Shown in pieces: positions 18,368-37,794 of a stretch of DNA of 37,794 nt (position 1 is the first letter of the stretch; each line of letters opens with the position of its first letter). Under the pieces are notes generated by a model. That model was not told where the DNA came from, did not search any database, and was given only the letters and a program-made list of their open reading frames with translations. The stretch is from assembly GCA_002687515.1 (NCBI GenBank), contig NZAK01000107.1, positions 1-37,794 of the forward strand, given 5' to 3'. Source of the DNA: Rhodospirillaceae bacterium. Its GTDB lineage: Bacteria; Pseudomonadota; Alphaproteobacteria; Rhodospirillales; UBA2165. A program made the position numbers and the translations under genes.

Positions 18368-19261
18368 TCAAAGTTTGAAGTTGAATATATCCTGATCGAA
18401 GGAATTGTAATCTTCGTATCTCAGCACTTCGTAGAGACGTTTGCGGGTCTGCATCCGCTCGACGATGCCGGCTTGCGTGCCCTCCTTCATAATCTCCGCG
18501 AATCCATCCTCGATCGCCTTCATGGCCAGGCGCAGCGAGGTTACGGGATAGATGACAATATTGAAGCCCAAATCCTCCAACTCGCGCGTGGTCAACAATG
18601 GTGTCTTGCCAAACTCCGTCATGTTGGCGAGCAAGGGTACGTCAAAGGCCGCGCGGAAAGTTTCGTACTGCTTTTTATCGGTCAGCGCTTCTGGAAACAA
18701 AGCTTCGGCGCCGGCGTCAACATAGGCCTTGGCGCGCTGGATGGTGGCATCCAGCCCTTCGACGGCGTTGGCATCGGTGCGCGCCATAATCAAGAAATTG
18801 GAATCGCGCTTGGCGTCGGCGGCGGCGCGTATCTTGCGCGCCATCGCCACCGTCTCGATCAATGTCTTGTTGTCCAGATGGCCGCAACGCTTCGGTAAAA
18901 CCTGATCTTCGATGTGGCACCCGGAAAGTCCGGCATCTTCCATTTCGCGCACCGTGCGCGCCGCGTTCATGCTTTCGCCGAAGCCGGTATCGGCATCGAT
19001 GATCGACGGCAAATCGGTGGCGCCGGCGATCTGGCGTCCGCGCCCGGCAACCTCGGCCAGGGTGGTCAGGCCGATATCGGGAAGCGCCAGGTCCGCCGAC
19101 AGGGCGGCGCCGGATATATAGACGCCATCGAAGCCGGTTTCCTCGGCAATGCGGCCGACGATGGGCGCATGGGCGCCGGGAAACCTGAGCAGGCGGCCCG
19201 ATGCCAGCGCATCCCGCAGCCCTTGACGCTTTTCCGCCGGTGTCTTTTCGGCAAACAGCAT
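18368..19261 (-). CDS. prpB: 2-Methylisocitrate lyase
   Basis: 297 residues, the usual length. It cleaves 2-methylisocitrate to pyruvate and succinate. Seen: FPGAHAPIVGRIAEETGFDGVYISGAA at the N-terminus, metal-binding IDADTGFG (Asp89, Asp91), the active-site motif LPKRCGH (Lys124-His128) with catalytic Cys126, MARTDA, and the C-terminal RLYEVLRYEDYNSFDQ. It starts on the base where prpD ends, so the two are translationally coupled. Confidence 0.96.
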   Translation of the reverse strand: MLFAEKTPAEKRQGLRDALASGRLLRFPGAHAPIVGRIAEETGFDGVYISGAALSADLALPDIGLTTLAEVAGRGRQIAGATDLPSIIDADTGFGESMNAARTVREMEDAGLSGCHIEDQVLPKRCGHLDNKTLIETVAMARKIRAAADAKRDSNFLIMARTDANAVEGLDATIQRAKAYVDAGAEALFPEALTDKKQYETFRAAFDVPLLANMTEFGKTPLLTTRELEDLGFNIVIYPVTSLRLAMKAIEDGFAEIMKEGTQAGIVERMQTRKRLYEVLRYEDYNSFDQDIFNFKL

Positions 19262-31577: not shown

Positions 31578-32249
31578 ATGAAACTTTGTGTCCCCAAGAA
31601 TATTGAATTCGGCAATGTCGTGTATCGGTTTCCAACAGCCGCGAGGCGGCTGGGTATTTTACTCATGGTCTGGGTTTGGGCAATTTCCCAATCGGCGAGC
31701 GGTCAGGCCAGCGCCGGTCCGGCGAGCGAACTGGTGGAGAAATTTCATAACGTCCTGATCGGTGTGATGAAAAAGGGCGGAAATATCAGCGTCCAACAAC
31801 GTTACGAAATACTGTCCCCGAAGGTACGCAAAACCTTTAATCTGCCCTTTATGATCCGAATCGTATCGGGTGCGGCATGGCGATCGGCCAACGACAATGA
31901 CAAGAAAGCATTGCTAGACGCATTTACTAAAATGAGTGTCAGCACTTATGCGTCCCGTTTTGACGATTATTCCGGTCAAAAATTTGAAACCCTGGCGGAA
32001 AGCCAGGGGCCTAAAAAGTCGGTACTGGTGCGTACGCGAATCGTGAGCCCAGGTGATACGCCGGTTAAGCTAACCTATGTTGTGCGAAAATTTGCCGACA
32101 AGTGGCGGGTCATCGACGTGATCCTGGCCGGAGGAATCAGCGAATTGGCGCTGCGGCATTCCGAGTATCGGGCCATATTAAAAAAGGACGGCCCGTTGGA
32201 ACTGGCAGCCACACTCAGCAAGAAATCGGACCAAATATTGGGCAAATGA
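31578..32249 (+). CDS. hpnM: HpnM, MlaC-family hopanoid-associated periplasmic protein
   Basis: 223 residues. A hydrophobic signal segment (LGILLMVWVWAISQSASGQA, about 25-44) precedes a MlaC/Ttg2D domain: ASELVEKFHNVLIGVMKKG, QQRYEILSPKVRKTFNLPFMIRIVSGAAWRSAN (diagnostic), FTKMSVSTYASRFDDYSGQKF, VVRKFADKWRVIDVILAGGISELALRHSEYRAIL. MlaC proteins shuttle lipids across the periplasm; the HpnM subgroup is found with hopanoid genes. Nearby hpnL and hpnN support the subgroup choice; a general MlaC is the alternative. It is convergent with hpnL, 27 bases apart. No mlaA/B/D/E genes are nearby. Confidence 0.85.
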   Translation: MKLCVPKNIEFGNVVYRFPTAARRLGILLMVWVWAISQSASGQASAGPASELVEKFHNVLIGVMKKGGNISVQQRYEILSPKVRKTFNLPFMIRIVSGAAWRSANDNDKKALLDAFTKMSVSTYASRFDDYSGQKFETLAESQGPKKSVLVRTRIVSPGDTPVKLTYVVRKFADKWRVIDVILAGGISELALRHSEYRAILKKDGPLELAATLSKKSDQILGK

Positions 32250-32276
32250 TACGGGCCACTGGGCTTGGTATGAGGG

Positions 32277-33281
32277 TTAATCGGCCGCCGCGCGGGAGCG
32301 CAGCGCTTCTTCTGCTTCTGCGGGTTTCAGTACGTAAAAAACCAACAGACCCCATGCGATCCATACGATTTCCCGCAAGCGGCGGATGAGCGCGGTGGCT
32401 AGGCCAAGCGTGGGTGAGCCGGTAATCGCGGCGCCGATCAGAACCATCGCTCCTTCCTGGGCACCGATCGCGGCGGGAACGAAAAACAGGGCCGAGCGGA
32501 CCATCTGCGCGACGGCTTCGATAATCCAGGCGTCCCATAAGGTGACGGGATGGCCGATAAATTTCATCGTGTAATAAATCTCGGCCACGCCGAACAGCCA
32601 GTTCAAAAAAGAGAGCCCGAAGGCCGCCATGAATCGGGCGCGCCTTTCGGTATAAAAATGCACCAGGCGGTCGTCCACGTCCTCGATGTAGTGCTGAATT
32701 CCATTAAGGGCCTTGAACGCGGGATGGGCGCTCAACTTCAAGCCAACAATGGATGTCAGCTTAAACCTCTGGATGATGAAGAATAAGGCTACGCCGGCCG
32801 AAAATACAATCAGTCCGGTAAATGCCGCGGCAGAATAATCCGCCAATTTTTGCGACCAACTCATCATCGCAAATCCGATGGCGAGAAAGATGACCAGGCC
32901 CACAACGATCAAGGTTTTCGAGACGATCAAGGAGGATATGCCCTCCCGATAATCGACACCGTAGCAACGCCTCAAGAGAATAGCCTTGATCGGCTCACCG
33001 CCAATACTGGCAGCCGGTGTTATGTTATTAAAGGCTTCGCCAACAAGCCGAACTTGGTAAAACCGATAAAGCCAAACGGCCGTTATCGGGGTCGAAGGCG
33101 AAGTCAGCTGCCAGGCCAGCGCATCGATCAGAAAAGCGGCAAAGTAAAGGGCTAGTATCAAAACGAAACCCACGCCCATATTCCGGGCCAAGGCTATCGC
33201 GCCTTGCAAATCGGTTTCTGATATCACCACGCCGAAGAGTGCGATTCCGGCGAGGAGAAATAATATCTTTATTTTTTTCAA
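32277..33281 (-). CDS. hpnL: HpnL, lysylphosphatidylglycerol synthase-like (UPF0104) membrane protein
   Basis: 334 residues with about eight hydrophobic membrane segments. Family motifs: FNNITPAASIGGEPIKAILLRR (about 84-105) and EAVAQMVRSALFFVPAAIGAQEGAMVLIG, the conserved ExxxRS...P..GxxEG pattern of UPF0104/LPG-synthase TM proteins. The start is a TTG at 33281, directly after the upstream stop in the same frame with AGAGG almost touching it, so the exact start is uncertain. It ends the operon hpnN - CDP-alcohol phosphatidyltransferase - hpnL. In hopanoid producers HpnL is linked to hopanoid handling; the biochemical role is unclear. Confidence 0.8.
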   Translation of the reverse strand: MKKIKILFLLAGIALFGVVISETDLQGAIALARNMGVGFVLILALYFAAFLIDALAWQLTSPSTPITAVWLYRFYQVRLVGEAFNNITPAASIGGEPIKAILLRRCYGVDYREGISSLIVSKTLIVVGLVIFLAIGFAMMSWSQKLADYSAAAFTGLIVFSAGVALFFIIQRFKLTSIVGLKLSAHPAFKALNGIQHYIEDVDDRLVHFYTERRARFMAAFGLSFLNWLFGVAEIYYTMKFIGHPVTLWDAWIIEAVAQMVRSALFFVPAAIGAQEGAMVLIGAAITGSPTLGLATALIRRLREIVWIAWGLLVFYVLKPAEAEEALRSRAAAD

Positions 33282-33311
33282 CCTCTGTTCGGCCCGAGTG
33301 AGGGTTGCGGC

Positions 33312-34019
33312 TTATACGCGGTGGTCTTTACCGCGGACGGCGAATTGAAGGATCCAATAAATTTGTGCTCCGACCGCGGCGAGCGGCAAAAGATAGCGTA
33401 TCCAATCCAATAGCGCCATCACGAGGACGATAAACCAAAAATCGGCGCGTGCAAATTCGCGGAAGGCAACGATCAAGACGGCTCCAAGCCCGTCTTTTTC
33501 TTGGCCCTGGTTTTCGTCTTCCCTCGGCATATCCGGATCGGTGATCTGATCGCCGGTGCTATCGCGCCATTTCCAAAAGAGGGTCAGAAAGTAATTGGTG
33601 GTTCCGCCGGCGGCCCCGGCCCATCCTAACCAGAGCCATATTTGTTGCTGTGTTTCGTTGTAAAGACCGTGGCCCATGGCGGCAATCACGGCCGAATTGA
33701 CAACCCAGTCGACAAAGGTATCGAATTCATGGCCGAACCGGGAAGCCTTTTTCCGGGCGCGCGCGATTTCTCCGTCGCAATTATCCAGAATATAGTTGAT
33801 GGTCAGCAATAGGCCCCCCAGGACATTAAATTCGTAACTGCCGGGCAAGAAACTTAAAGCCGCGGCTATCCCGAATATCAGCGCAATGAAGGTCGCTTGA
33901 CTGGACCCCAACCGGGTCTTCAACAGGAGGATCGTCAGCGGCCGGGAAATGTGACGGATCAGCGGAAAAATGGTTGTCGGCCGATCCGGTGGGCGTAGCC
34001 CCGAGCCGGAATTTGTCAT
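33312..34019 (-). CDS. CDP-alcohol phosphatidyltransferase
   Basis: 235 residues, multi-pass. The full motif D-x2-DG-x2-AR-x8-G-x3-D-x3-D is present: Asp79, Asp82, Gly83, Ala86, Arg87, Gly96, Asp100 and Asp104 (ILDNCDGEIARARKKASRFG, then HEFDTFVD). These enzymes transfer a CDP-linked alcohol group to a second alcohol in the cytoplasmic membrane, giving phospholipids such as phosphatidylglycerol-phosphate or inositol lipids. An acidic loop (DPDMPREDENQGQEKDG) between helices is unusual. Start overlaps the end of hpnN by ATGA, so it is translated with the hopanoid transporter. Substrate unknown. Confidence 0.85.
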   Translation of the reverse strand: MTNSGSGLRPPDRPTTIFPLIRHISRPLTILLLKTRLGSSQATFIALIFGIAAALSFLPGSYEFNVLGGLLLTINYILDNCDGEIARARKKASRFGHEFDTFVDWVVNSAVIAAMGHGLYNETQQQIWLWLGWAGAAGGTTNYFLTLFWKWRDSTGDQITDPDMPREDENQGQEKDGLGAVLIVAFREFARADFWFIVLVMALLDWIRYLLPLAAVGAQIYWILQFAVRGKDHRV

Positions 34020-36646
34020 CGGCTATTTCCAAGCGGCAAAACGCTCAGTAGTGCCGGCAGGACTGTCAATGTGCAGATCAGCGTCAAGATAATTGCGATG
34101 GTAAGCAGAACACCCATGCTGGCGGTGCCCGGATGGCTGGATAGGGCAATGCTTGCGAACGATCCGATTGTGGTCAGGGCGCTAAACACAACGGCGCGCG
34201 GCGTGCTGGTGTTCATGGCGCTGAGTTTGCCGCCGGTGGACTTCTCTCGCATCACGAGATGGATTGCGCTGGCGATGCCCAGTCCGAACAGCAGCGGCAG
34301 GACAATCACATTGGCGAAATTGAACGGAAGATCGGCCAACACCGAAACAGCCATGGTCAAGCTCGCGGCGACCAGCAAAGGCGCAAATATGAGCAGGACT
34401 TCCTTCGTGTTTTTGGTGATCACAATGACCAGGGCGGCAATCAGCAGGAACGCCCAAAGGGCAGCCTGGACAAAAGCTTCGACGACGACGCGTCCAGCTT
34501 CCAAAATAGTGACCGGCGATCCGGCTGCGTTCGGTGCGACGGTTCGAACTTCGCTCACGAATCTGGTCAATGCCTTTCGATCCGTCATATCGGCTTTCGG
34601 GGTTACCGTCACTTTGGCGCGGCCATCCTCGGCAATCTGCCGTGATATCAGCTCCTCGGGAAGCGAATTTAGGTCGATTTTCGAAACTTCGAGGGCGTGA
34701 CGCAATTCCAAAAGTCTTTTGACCAGGGTTGAGGTCAGACGGGTCTCCAGTTCCTCAAGTCCCGTTTTGCTAAGGTTGAATTTGGTTGCGAAATCATCCA
34801 GTGCGGCCAAGAGATTATCGATCTCAGTCAACAATTTTTTGTCGTAATCGGAATTATTCGCGCGATTTACAAAACCACGTAAATCTTGAAACGCCGACAA
34901 TCTGTCCGCATGATTTGAACTGCGCCGTTCCGGTTGGATACTCAGCGATGGCGCCAGCGTGAATCCTAGTGTCTCGGCAATCTCGAGTTTTGCCTCCTGC
35001 ATCGAAGGAATGAGATCATTGATTGAAAATGCAGACTTGACGGTCTCCATATTTTCCAGCGACTGGGCAAATTCCCTTGCTTTTTCGATATCGCGCGCCA
35101 GAAATTCGATTCTGTAGGGACCTTCGTCATTTGCTTCCGCCAGGGCAAACAGCGTGGCGACGGATTCCGAGTTTCTGTCCTTCAAATTCAGCGGGTCAAA
35201 ATCGAAGCGGACCTCGGGAAGCAGGATCAGACCGATAATACCCGCCGCGCCGACGATAAATCCCAACGGTCTGTTCCAGCGATATTTGTTTCCGATACCT
35301 GGTTCGTAAGAGTTTTGCGCGGATCGTGTTTGACCGATGCGCGATGAGGTTAGCATCAAAAGTGCCGGAAGCAGCGTAACGTTCGCGGCCAGGGCGATGA
35401 ACATGCCGCCGCCCGCAATGATGCCGAGCTCGGCGAGCCCGATATAGTCGGTGGGAACGAAAGCTAGAAACCCGATGGCTGCCGCTAGAGCGGATAGAAT
35501 CAGCGCGCCGCCCACGTCGCCGCCTGCTTCGACCAAGGCGCCCCTTGCCCGGCTGCCGGCGATCATCGCCTCTCTAAACCGAAGTGTATAGTGGATGCCA
35601 AAATCGACGCTCAACCCGATAAACAACACGGCGAAGGCAATCGAAATCAGATTAAGCGTTCCGACCGCCCAGGCCGCAAATCCAGCGGTCCAAATCAAGC
35701 CGACGATCAAGGTCAGCAATACGGCTGCCGACAATTTTAGGGATTTCAGTCCCCAGATCAGCAGTAGAACAACCAGGCTAAAGGACAACACGCCCGCCAG
35801 TCCGAGGCCGTCAACGACACTAGCTAATTCTTCGTGTTCAAGGGCGACCGAGCCCGTCAGACGGGCGCGAACGCCGAATTTGTCTTCCAACGCAAGATCG
35901 GAAAATGTCTTTCTAAGGCGGTTGATAACATCACCGCCCGGCTGCAGTGCTCGGTAATTAAGGCGTGGTTGCAGGACTATGGTCCGGTATTTGCGGCTCT
36001 CCGGCACATCCTTTCCGGCAATCAGCTCGCGCCAGGACAGGTATTTGCGTTCCCCCGCAATCTGGGCTCGGATTACCTGTACTGTTGCCTTCAGCATTTC
36101 GCCCAGGGCCGGAATATCCGTTTTGTCTTTTTTTTCGGCGCTTTCCTTGAGAATCAGACGTAGCGTTCCGAACAGCCCAGGGAGCGTCGGGTCGTTCCAT
36201 AGCTTTCCAATGAACGGTTGCGCATCGTTGAGCCGGGCTACGAGGCTTTCGAGTTCATCCGTGCTCAGATATAGAAAGCCGTTTTTGGTGAAAAAAGGCA
36301 GTCCTTCGGGGGCGAAGACGCGACCATATAGGCCCGGAAATTTTGCCAATTCGCCGGCCAGAACATCGGCGGCGTCGGCGAGCAAATCCGCGTTGCCTCC
36401 GTCCAATACGATGACGATATTATCGTCAAATTGCGGAAACGCCCTGTCCAGTTCCTTTGCATTTTGGCGAAACGCCAAATCGGGCGATAACATGTCCTCG
36501 GTATCGGTGTTGATCCCGATGCTGGTTGCCGCGAAGTATCCAATGGCGATAGTCAGGATCGAGATCGCGGCAACCGCCGTCTTCGCGTTCTCGGTGATAA
36601 ATTGGATCCACCACTTAAGGGCCGCTTCAGATTTTTTCAATTGCAT
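34016..36646 (-). CDS. hpnN: HpnN, hopanoid RND-superfamily (MMPL) transporter
   Basis: 876 residues, the usual HpnN length. Architecture: a first transmembrane helix (about 20-42), a large periplasmic domain (about 45-275), a block of membrane helices (about 280-440, with LLIWGLKSLKLSAAVLLTLIVGLIW and GLSVDFGIHYTLRFREAM), then a second half of the same plan with helices about 745-870 (GLGIASAIHLVMREK). This MMPL layout with conserved GxSVDFGIH matches HpnN, which moves hopanoids from the inner to the outer membrane. It leads the operon with the phosphatidyltransferase and hpnL. Confidence 0.88.
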   Translation of the reverse strand: MQLKKSEAALKWWIQFITENAKTAVAAISILTIAIGYFAATSIGINTDTEDMLSPDLAFRQNAKELDRAFPQFDDNIVIVLDGGNADLLADAADVLAGELAKFPGLYGRVFAPEGLPFFTKNGFLYLSTDELESLVARLNDAQPFIGKLWNDPTLPGLFGTLRLILKESAEKKDKTDIPALGEMLKATVQVIRAQIAGERKYLSWRELIAGKDVPESRKYRTIVLQPRLNYRALQPGGDVINRLRKTFSDLALEDKFGVRARLTGSVALEHEELASVVDGLGLAGVLSFSLVVLLLIWGLKSLKLSAAVLLTLIVGLIWTAGFAAWAVGTLNLISIAFAVLFIGLSVDFGIHYTLRFREAMIAGSRARGALVEAGGDVGGALILSALAAAIGFLAFVPTDYIGLAELGIIAGGGMFIALAANVTLLPALLMLTSSRIGQTRSAQNSYEPGIGNKYRWNRPLGFIVGAAGIIGLILLPEVRFDFDPLNLKDRNSESVATLFALAEANDEGPYRIEFLARDIEKAREFAQSLENMETVKSAFSINDLIPSMQEAKLEIAETLGFTLAPSLSIQPERRSSNHADRLSAFQDLRGFVNRANNSDYDKKLLTEIDNLLAALDDFATKFNLSKTGLEELETRLTSTLVKRLLELRHALEVSKIDLNSLPEELISRQIAEDGRAKVTVTPKADMTDRKALTRFVSEVRTVAPNAAGSPVTILEAGRVVVEAFVQAALWAFLLIAALVIVITKNTKEVLLIFAPLLVAASLTMAVSVLADLPFNFANVIVLPLLFGLGIASAIHLVMREKSTGGKLSAMNTSTPRAVVFSALTTIGSFASIALSSHPGTASMGVLLTIAIILTLICTLTVLPALLSVLPLGNSR

Positions 36647-36729
36647 GTGGTCCGCATTGGAGTTCCGCTAGCTCTGCTTATAACGCCCGCTATTTGGGCG
36701 GCGCAAGGTAAACACCATTTGTTCGCTGC

Positions 36730-36760
36730 TTGACAACATTCGCCGCGTCCAACAGTTATA
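36730..36760 (+). promoter_or_regulatory. Possible sigma-70 promoter of the second phosphatidyltransferase gene
   Basis: TTGACA (36730-36735) is a perfect -35, with GTTATA (36755-36760) as a weak -10 at 19-base spacing. Transcription would start at or near ATG 36767, giving a leaderless or near-leaderless mRNA, consistent with no ribosome site being visible. Low certainty. Confidence 0.35.
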
Positions 36761-36766
36761 TTGGCC

Positions 36767-37378
36767 ATGAACATCATGCCTTGGGATCAGCGAATTGCAC
36801 GTGTCTTGGTTCGGCCGTTGGTCGACGGTCCGGTACGGCCAAATCAAATCTCCGTCGTGACGTCGATTTTGGCTATAGCGGGCGCCGTGCTATTGGCCCG
36901 AGGCGATCCGGTGTCGGTCAATTGGGGGGCGGGACTATTTATATTTTCACGGTTCCTGGATCATTTTGACGGTGAACTGGCCCGTCAGCAGGGCACCGCC
37001 TCGAAGCTCGGATATTATATGGATTATGTCTCCGGCGGCACCAGTTATGCCGCACTTTTCATCGGCATGGGAATCGGATCCTTCACTGCGTTGGGCGTCT
37101 GGGCACTGATATTGTCGGCGGCCGGTGTCGCGTCGGCGCTCATTTCAATGTATTCGAATATGGAAATCGATCGGCATCGCCACGGTTCGGAGAATATTGA
37201 TGCCGTCGGATATCCGGGAATAGCGGGATTCGAACTCGAGGACGGAATTTACCTTTTGGGGCCGATTACGTGGCTTGGATGGCTGCAGTCATTTTTTGTC
37301 GCCGCCGGTATCGGGGCGTCGGTTTATTGTCTTTGGACAATTCTCAGGCATGCGAGACTGGCCATCGCCAGTCGATAA
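36767..37378 (+). CDS. CDP-alcohol phosphatidyltransferase-like protein with incomplete catalytic motif
   Basis: 203 residues from ATG 36767 (a TTG two codons upstream would give 205; numbering below uses the longer form). Multi-pass protein with FLDHFDGELARQQGTASKLG then YYMDYVSGG: Asp67, Asp70, Gly71, Ala74, Arg75, Gly84 and Asp88 are present, but position 92, normally the fourth Asp and proposed catalytic base, is Gly. The rest of the fold (PNQISVVTSILAIAGAVLLARG and C-terminal helices) is intact. It may be inactive, use another base, or bind a ligand only. Divergent from hpnN. The reading frame is intact, so this is not decay. Confidence 0.75.
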   Translation: MNIMPWDQRIARVLVRPLVDGPVRPNQISVVTSILAIAGAVLLARGDPVSVNWGAGLFIFSRFLDHFDGELARQQGTASKLGYYMDYVSGGTSYAALFIGMGIGSFTALGVWALILSAAGVASALISMYSNMEIDRHRHGSENIDAVGYPGIAGFELEDGIYLLGPITWLGWLQSFFVAAGIGASVYCLWTILRHARLAIASR

Positions 37379-37448
37379 CATATCATTTGAGGTTTTGTTG
37401 GAGAGGTTCCGGATGGATGGGAAGCACTCGACCGGGATGATTTTGCGG

Positions 37449-37500
37449 CACTAAAAGTAAACTGTCACCGATTTAAAACGGTGACAGTTTACTTTTAGTG
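37449..37500. repeat. Perfect 22-bp inverted repeat with 8-base loop
   Basis: Arms 37449-37470 and 37479-37500 are exact reverse complements (left arm ends AAACTGTCACCG; loop ATTTAAAA). It is 70 bases past the phosphatidyltransferase stop. There is no T-run after the stem, and the arms are AT-rich outside, so it is not a classic terminator, though it could stop or stabilise transcripts. Similar GTAAACTGTCACC hairpins often flank Y1/IS200-type transposase elements in environmental proteobacteria; no transposase gene is visible here. Confidence 0.85.
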
Positions 37501-37575
37501 AATGGGAAAATAAATGGCCCCCGGCGGGTTCTCCGATCCCTTGAAATGTTCCGGATACGTTCCATATCATGCCTC

Positions 37576-37587
37576 TGCTCTTTGACA
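37576..37587 (+). promoter_or_regulatory. boxA-like antitermination motif
   Basis: TGCTCTTTGACA matches the boxA core (TGCTCTTTRACA) found in rRNA leaders and upstream of some CRISPR arrays. It is single, with no boxB or mature RNA in the remaining 207 bases, so its function is open. Confidence 0.3.
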
Positions 37588-37752
37588 TCGTGAATATGGA
37601 AGTTTGACGGAGCGCCCGGGGGGCGCAAACCGCGGGGTGCCGCTTGCCTCCGATGCCCTCCCGTTGCCATGCCGTTGCCGCATGGCCCGGGCCTGTTTTG
37701 CCGGGTATGGCGATGGCCGGCCCGGCCGAGATGCTCCTAAAAGACTATGAAT

Positions 37753-37779
37753 GCCTATAAAAGCCTATAATGCCTATGG
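37753..37779 (+). repeat. Short GCCTATAA direct repeat
   Basis: GCCTATAAAA, GCCTATAAT and GCCTATGG follow each other at 37753, 37763 and 37772 (period 10 then 9), preceded by a diverged GACTATGAAT at about 37743. It could be iterons or simple slippage; too short to assign. Confidence 0.5.
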
Positions 37780-37794
37780 TCGAATCGGTTGCTG

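Follow-up and report, generated by a model that had tools for sequence, protein, structure and literature searches.

Hopanoids are bacterial sterol-like lipids, and the genes considered here join putative hopanoid export to CDP-alcohol (cytidine diphosphate-alcohol) phosphotransferases. The window, the whole stretch of DNA that was analysed, is an entire contig (C105, 37794 bases) from a Rhodospirillaceae bacterium; the source assembly has 181 contigs and is 87% complete. Five genes lie at 31578-37378, all where an earlier note on this DNA had placed them. The first, hpnM (31578-32249, forward strand), codes for an MlaC-type periplasmic lipid-binding protein (TIGR03481, 189.6 bits, cut-off 160.1; PF05494, 123 bits). 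On the reverse strand follows hpnL (32277-33281, TTG start), a flippase-like membrane protein (LPG_synthase_TM) with 183 bits to TIGR03476, slightly below the cut-off of 195.65, and 99.8 bits to PF03706, above the cut-off. The next reverse-strand genes are PT1 (33312-34019), a CDP-alcohol phosphotransferase (PF01066, 38.8 bits, cut-off 22), and hpnN (34016-36646), an RND/MMPL hopanoid transporter. HpnN reached 919.9 bits with TIGR03480 (cut-off 751.85) and stayed below the cut-off of the stricter NF052374 'hopanoid transporter HpnN' (695.6 vs 1100 bits). PT2 (36761-37378, forward strand; earliest ATG in frame at 36767) diverges from hpnN and has the CDP-alcohol phosphotransferase fold with an altered motif (PF01066, 43.6 bits, cut-off 22). 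The start ATG of PT1 shares bases with the hpnN stop codon in an ATGA overlap; this coupling, and an intact PT1 motif, had been read correctly in the earlier note.

The PT1 motif is whole (DNCDGEIAR-x8-GHEFDTFVD); PT1 and a third transferase found in relatives, PT3, were tested against the consensus D-x2-D-G-x2-A-R-x8-G-x3-D-x3-D. The last aspartate of this motif is commonly taken as the catalytic base. The second transferase had been described as altered, and in PT2 glycine indeed replaces this residue (DHFDGELAR-x8-GYYMDYVSG). PT2 was filed as a member of the fold only, not of the active type, because the last aspartate is missing. Across 121 loci, drawn from two locus sets that overlap in genomes, the aspartate is kept in 69/69 PT1-type and 89/89 PT3-type open reading frames (ORFs); the PT2-type ORFs (>150 bits) have glycine in 109/113, valine in 4/113 and aspartate in 0/113. 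An exception among further class-level loci is an ORF labelled PT3 (L197, 148 bits) with a motif ending in alanine. The change to glycine or valine is a trait of the PT2 family. Loss of the aspartate might be taken to mark PT2 as a dead remnant, which is highly improbable because the change is fixed in all 113 ORFs and a remnant would drift. An alignment of 45 PT2 sequences also retains an invariant segment (YP...G.ELEDG.Y) at a mean column identity of 60%, and phosphatidylcholine synthase works despite a modified motif, according to a passage on that enzyme in PMC3972451. As a conjecture from the alignment, the invariant ELEDG segment may supply another acid or base.

AlphaFold2 models of PT1 and PT2 had pLDDT values of 87.6 and 89.5. 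The top fold match was AF2299 in both cases (PT1: 4o6n, E 1.1e-5, TMq 0.65; PT2: 4q7c, E 1.7e-5, TMq 0.76), in agreement with profile searches in which AF2299 was the nearest solved structure for PT1, PT2 and PT3. The PT2 and PT3 profiles also reach CEPT1 (1e-6 and 3.8e-5), which ranks second for PT2. Pentatricopeptide repeat proteins among the PT2 and PT3 profile matches to solved structures were taken as chance. Fold and motif resemble AF2299, IPCT-DIPPS (4o6m, 4mnd), PIPS (6h53) and CEPT1/CHPT1 (8gyw, 8ero), and IPCT-DIPPS similarly pairs a cytidylyltransferase with a transferase. Unlike these enzymes, PT2 does not have the last aspartate, and PT1 and PT2 share only 14-23% identity with the solved relatives in fold alignments.

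The arrangement recurs much more often than chance would allow. A search for HpnN in the source genome and relatives (60 genomes in all) gave matches over the cut-off in 40; 41 hpnN loci were analysed, the window included. A survey of hpnN neighbourhoods had been set beforehand as the test that could refute the association, and the pairing with transferases was found again in 28/41 loci, where PT2 is divergent and adjoins hpnN. PT1 lies directly downstream in 27/41. The same loci contain HpnM (35), HpnL (31), PT3 (25) and a phosphonate gene (21). Searching named genomes with the alignment of PT2 yielded 94 loci, the best 80 of which were mapped. They come mostly from metagenome-assembled genomes (MAGs) of Rhodospirillales and other Alphaproteobacteria, with three from Rokubacteria; two records, LM-1 and AH-558-E05, are not marked as MAGs. 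HpnN was present in 53 of these loci, PT3 in 63, a hopanoid gene in 58 and a phosphonate gene in 43, a number that includes L174 with a 108-bit match only. Counts per locus refer to the stretch analysed around each locus, and many stretches end at contig ends. Two tandem hpnM genes were seen in relatives outside the family of the window (e.g., L043, L050), which itself has mostly one.

The surroundings of the five genes are visible in a genome of the same genus (G001), in which a single contig (G001:C21) carries hpnN and, about 13 kb away, squalene-hopene cyclase (SHC). PT2 is followed there by PT3, PhnW, an ORF of unknown function, phosphonopyruvate decarboxylase (Ppd), a phosphoenolpyruvate (PEP) mutase-nucleotidyltransferase fusion and a PhnY-like dioxygenase. 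The order continues with a free nucleotidyltransferase, HpnA, IspH, HpnH, HpnG, SHC, HpnD, HpnB and HpnC. Scores were 475 bits for PhnW (TIGR02326), 425 bits for Ppd and 399 bits for the PEP mutase fusion; HpnG, at 151 bits, was under its cut-off. The ORF between phnW and ppd (L077:14391-15485, 365 amino acids) has no Pfam or NCBIfam match. Gene order is near-constant in nine mapped genomes of the window's family, where G002 is without transferases at that locus. Other families have the same content in different orders (L162, L166, L170, L197, L205, L214). In a single-contig genome (G407), PhnW and Ppd are inside the hopanoid cluster and PEP mutase is about 1 Mb away. Phosphonate genes are missing from three loci (L086, L087, L089) that have the transferases, the dioxygenase and the cytidylyltransferase. 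Three others (L189, in G040, L198 and L204) keep hpnA, the free cytidylyltransferase and PT3 together without phosphonate genes.

In the source genome the contig breaks off where PT3 is expected. Only 416 bases separate the end of PT2 from the contig end, and this tail (37379-37794, no strand assigned) consists of sequence repeated across the genome, with 72 matches, itself included. It is not part of the system and marks an assembly break. Locus L070, of the same genus, has its PT3 frame about 110 bases beyond PT2. A relative's PT3 matched nothing better than PT2 itself in the window and in three other PF01066 loci of the source genome. The earlier note had rightly remarked that the window has no hopanoid cyclase genes; SHC is absent there and had no match anywhere in the 87%-complete assembly. 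PEP mutase was likewise not found in the source genome, where the best match (149.5 bits) is a window protein without the EDK motif. This protein (18368-19261) was rejected as a PEP mutase; it carries a KRCGH motif, which we take to be of the methylisocitrate lyase type. The rest of the supercluster was probably lost from the assembly at the contig break, and the source genome would accordingly possess the missing half, namely PT3, the phosphonate genes and SHC. A near-perfect palindrome at about 37449-37500 (AAAAGTAAACTGTCACC...GGTGACAGTTTACTTTT) is REP-like and occurs in many copies in the same genome; here it stands at the contig end.

The phosphonate enzymes of the relatives were identified by motif and profile. 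The PEP mutase signature EDKxxxxxNS, as given in a passage of PMC6697681, is present in 32/33 ORFs, the remaining one being cut by a contig end. The G001 enzyme (L077) reached 398.8 bits with TIGR02320 (cut-off 319.55) and 419 bits with the solved PEP phosphomutase 1m1b of the PDB. By these marks, the PEP mutase of the relatives is a true one. The best solved structure for the free cytidylyltransferase profile is PntC (6pd1, E 2.4e-17, along almost the full length); LicC (8.7e-13) and IPCT (2.6e-6) come next. In PntC, Glu104 and Glu196 contact 2-aminoethylphosphonate (AEP), Glu196 at the amine, according to a published account. By manual count on the printed alignment, Glu196 aligns with an invariant glutamate of the free cytidylyltransferase. 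The PhnY-like dioxygenase scored 156.8 bits with NF052437, its best family match although the cut-off is 500, and 77 bits with PF05721 (PhyH).

Co-occurrence ties the transferases to both pathways across whole genomes. Among the 60 genomes, SHC is present in 42/44 with HpnN, the source genome included, and in 1/16 without it; PEP mutase is present in 32/44 and 2/16, sub-cut-off matches in G021 and G056 being left out. The 44 include four contig-cut HpnN matches below the cut-off (619-737 bits). Transferases (at least 140 bits) occur in 39/43 SHC genomes and in 2/17 without SHC; these two, the source genome and G019, are incomplete assemblies. A class sample of 385 genomes was drawn evenly, the class being taken as Alphaproteobacteria from the names in the PT2 scan. 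Transferases, PT3 included, were called at E 1e-25 with the PT2 profile, and SHC at E 1e-60; 101 of the 105 SHC calls were over the cut-off. Transferases were found in 43/385 genomes, and SHC accompanied them in 41/43 vs 64/342 of the others (p 4.6e-24). PEP mutase over the cut-off was also found in 43, with SHC in 40/43 vs 65/342 (p 2.7e-22). The three PEP mutase genomes without SHC have ORFs of 438-452 amino acids, whereas 38 of the 40 with SHC have at least 554. The 40 genomes with both PEP mutase and SHC span 19 families. Of the 105 SHC genomes, those with transferases have PEP mutase in 35/41 cases and those without in 5/64 (p 2e-16). These counts ignore relatedness, except for a test with one vote per family: both 16, transferase only 3, PEP mutase only 3, neither 31 (p 5e-8). 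Of the 80 PT2 genomes, 50 were searched for SHC: it was over the cut-off in 48, in fragments in one and not found in one. PEP mutase was over the cut-off in 30/50, a rate biased low by the choice of genomes with unusual loci. Transferases thus accompany hopanoids almost without exception and phosphonates in most cases, even where the genes are not neighbours.

A second setting links the transferases to hopanoid head groups. In five loci (L181-L184 and L213, in G002, G033, G057, G050 and G407), PT1 and PT3 enclose hpnI and hpnJ, and in four of the five also hpnK, with HpnL beside PT1. By family, the enclosed genes are of the sugar type of hopanoid head-group genes, like the hpnI-hpnK-hpnJ set for bacteriohopanetetrol-glucosamine, a polar hopanoid. 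The transferases are therefore tied to hopanoid head groups there without phosphonate. The literature search gave no report of transferases beside hpnI-hpnK-hpnJ.

The earlier note had suggested that hopanoid export is linked to a reaction on a lipid head group, with a polar hopanoid or a co-transported phospholipid as candidates. This link is well supported by genomic association (28/41 hpnN loci; SHC in 41/43 transferase genomes), and a polar hopanoid is tentatively favoured as the product. The name phosphatidyltransferase used in that note is probably wrong in detail: the frequent phosphonate and PntC-like cytidylyltransferase partners suggest transfer from a head group activated with cytidine monophosphate (CMP), not from CDP-diacylglycerol, and point to a phosphonate as the head group. 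On a tentative reading, held at somewhat less than even confidence, the window covers one end of a hopanoid supercluster, that for export, and the genes for making and activating a phosphonate head group sit at the opposite end. PEP mutase, Ppd and PhnW would yield AEP, which the PhnY-like dioxygenase may hydroxylate; phosphonolipids with 1-hydroxy-AEP occur in bacteria of the Bdellovibrio group. CMP-AEP would be formed by cytidylyltransferases similar to PntC, of which one is fused with PEP mutase and another lies free beside hpnA. From CMP-AEP, PT1 and PT3 would pass the phosphonate on to a hydroxyl group of a polar hopanoid, e.g., bacteriohopanetetrol. PT2, without the last aspartate, may serve as a partner subunit or catalyse with a different base. 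HpnL, HpnN and HpnM would then flip the product and carry it to the outer membrane. Gene order, families, motifs, the joint occurrence of transferases, PEP mutase and SHC, and the likeness of the free cytidylyltransferase to PntC are observed; the substrate and acceptor of this route, the order of its steps, the role of PT2 and the presence of the missing half in the source genome are inferred.

Several observations weigh against this mechanism, which is drawn from genomes. The source genome, in its incomplete assembly, shows neither PEP mutase nor SHC. Two genomes that are each 98% complete (G055, G484) have PT3, dioxygenase and cytidylyltransferase and no PEP mutase over the cut-off, and in three Rokubacteria with PT2 (L174-L176) SHC is present but PEP mutase does not reach the cut-off. 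The phosphonate is therefore not obligatory unless AEP is imported. The AEP-binding protein phnS2 was over the cut-off in 4/14 genomes without PEP mutase over the cut-off vs 0/6 with it. Among these 14, sub-cut-off PEP mutase matches (272-298 bits) occur in G056, G116 and G413, and G006 lacks a transferase match; G056 and G413 are two of the four phnS2 genomes. AEP import could explain genomes such as G055 and G484, a suggestion for which the numbers are too few for proof. A genome with PT2, PT3, dioxygenase, phnW, ppd and a contig-cut PEP mutase (G095, locus L163, very likely identical to G414) is the sole one of the 50 in which no SHC was found. Conversely, five SHC genomes carry PEP mutase without these transferases. 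Neither phosphonate nor counted hopanoid genes are seen in 13/80 PT2 loci, five of which span the full 20 kb (L145, L152, L156, L160, L168). PT1-3 are nearest to AF2299 and inositol-phosphate enzymes by sequence and fold, and the PT1 search of solved structures gave no choline or ethanolamine transferase. The position of PntC Glu104 is an aspartate in the free cytidylyltransferase, as in LicC. As a separate observation, the two scanned neighbour genes of PT2 in the Rokubacteria locus L174 are unrelated.

Two other products are each unlikely and deserve weighing. The first is a phosphonolipid on diacylglycerol, made from CMP-AEP and diacylglycerol and either exported with hopanoids by HpnN, HpnM and HpnL or dependent on neighbouring hopanoids in the outer membrane. 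The family includes CDP-choline/ethanolamine:diacylglycerol transferases, among which CEPT1 is reached by the PT2 and PT3 profiles, and MlaC, which HpnM resembles, stands for a phospholipid-carrier family. A module of cytidylyltransferase, PhnW, HpnL, PT1-3, Ppd, PEP mutase and dioxygenase occurs in L124, L128 and L178 without hpnN, SHC or hpn synthesis genes in the stretch analysed, as a diacylglycerol product would allow; SHC is on another contig of each genome. A diacylglycerol acceptor leaves the near-absolute SHC link unexplained (41/43; 49/50 counting fragments), as well as the transferases around hpnI, hpnJ and hpnK.

The second, of about the same low probability, is a phosphate-linked head group on hopanoids, such as choline, ethanolamine, inositol or another polyol, to which the phosphonate genes are a frequent later addition. 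IPCT/DIPPS and inositol-phosphate synthases among the nearest characterised relatives would fit a phosphate link, as would the three Rokubacteria and the hpnA-cytidylyltransferase-PT3 groups without phosphonate genes, one of which is from a genome without a PEP mutase match (G040). The genomes of the other two (G473 for L198, G189 for L204) carry PEP mutase elsewhere, however, and PEP mutase tracks the transferases within SHC genomes (35/41 vs 5/64). PntC is also closer to the free cytidylyltransferase than LicC or IPCT are. That the genes merely keep the ancestral order of one lineage, without shared function, is very improbable: the sampled relatives do share ancestry and the order hardly varies in the nine mapped genomes from the family of the window, but the content persists in six loci with differing orders, the association survives one vote per family and the SHC link reaches Rokubacteria.

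The proposed phosphonate transfer to a hopanoid has known parallels. The Pnt phosphonyl tailoring pathways with PntC, as described in parts of Rice et al. 2019 (PMC6697681), share the PEP mutase-nucleotidyltransferase fusion, Ppd, the AEP transaminase and the logic of CMP activation. In the contexts given there, the product is a glycan or phosphonolipid, whereas here the genes are set within hopanoid synthesis and export, and a member of the transferase family is likely the last step. A text find in the main text of that paper gave no mention of hopanoid, CDP-alcohol or phosphatidyltransferase. A linkage of PEP mutase to SHC is already known from several Roseomonas, where the relevant passages of PMC8776678 (2021) propose an undiscovered terpene-phosphonate. 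In contrast to the hybrids of that one family, the association here spans 19 families and adds the transferases; the same passages mention neither a CDP-alcohol phosphotransferase nor a cytidylyltransferase, nor hpnN/M/L. The export genes belong to the HpnN, HpnM and HpnL families of described hopanoid export (Doughty 2011, as cited in a passage of PMC10942540), unlike which HpnN is here coupled to CDP-alcohol phosphotransferases. The tie between transferases and hopanoids appears new: no paper on it was found in a literature search beyond whose reach most subscription papers lay.

The combination of hopanoid genes, transferases and phosphonate genes in many, largely uncultured marine Alphaproteobacteria suggests an unrecognised lipid with a carbon-phosphorus head group. 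A wider claim, made with a shade less confidence than the mechanism, is that phosphonohopanoids exist: Alphaproteobacteria, above all uncultured marine Rhodospirillales, would add the head group by dedicated CDP-alcohol phosphotransferases and export the product by HpnN, HpnM and HpnL. The long PEP mutase of the class would serve mainly this lipid, and hopanoids would be a sizeable marine phosphonate carrier. If true, hopanoids with a carbon-phosphorus bond form a new lipid class, and a transferase family whose members would be annotated as phosphatidyltransferases gains a function. Two puzzles would be linked, the use of most alphaproteobacterial PEP mutases and the lipid moved by HpnN, HpnM and HpnL, and a biomarker lipid would join the marine phosphonate cycle.

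Gene fusions were also screened. Long PT3 frames (e.g., L128, L045) were considered as PT3-Ppd fusions and rejected because no second domain turned up in them in a domain search. The sole natural fusion in the domain search is HpnN-HpnL, encoded by one frame of 1259 amino acids in a Kiloniellaceae MAG (L167:1667-5443).

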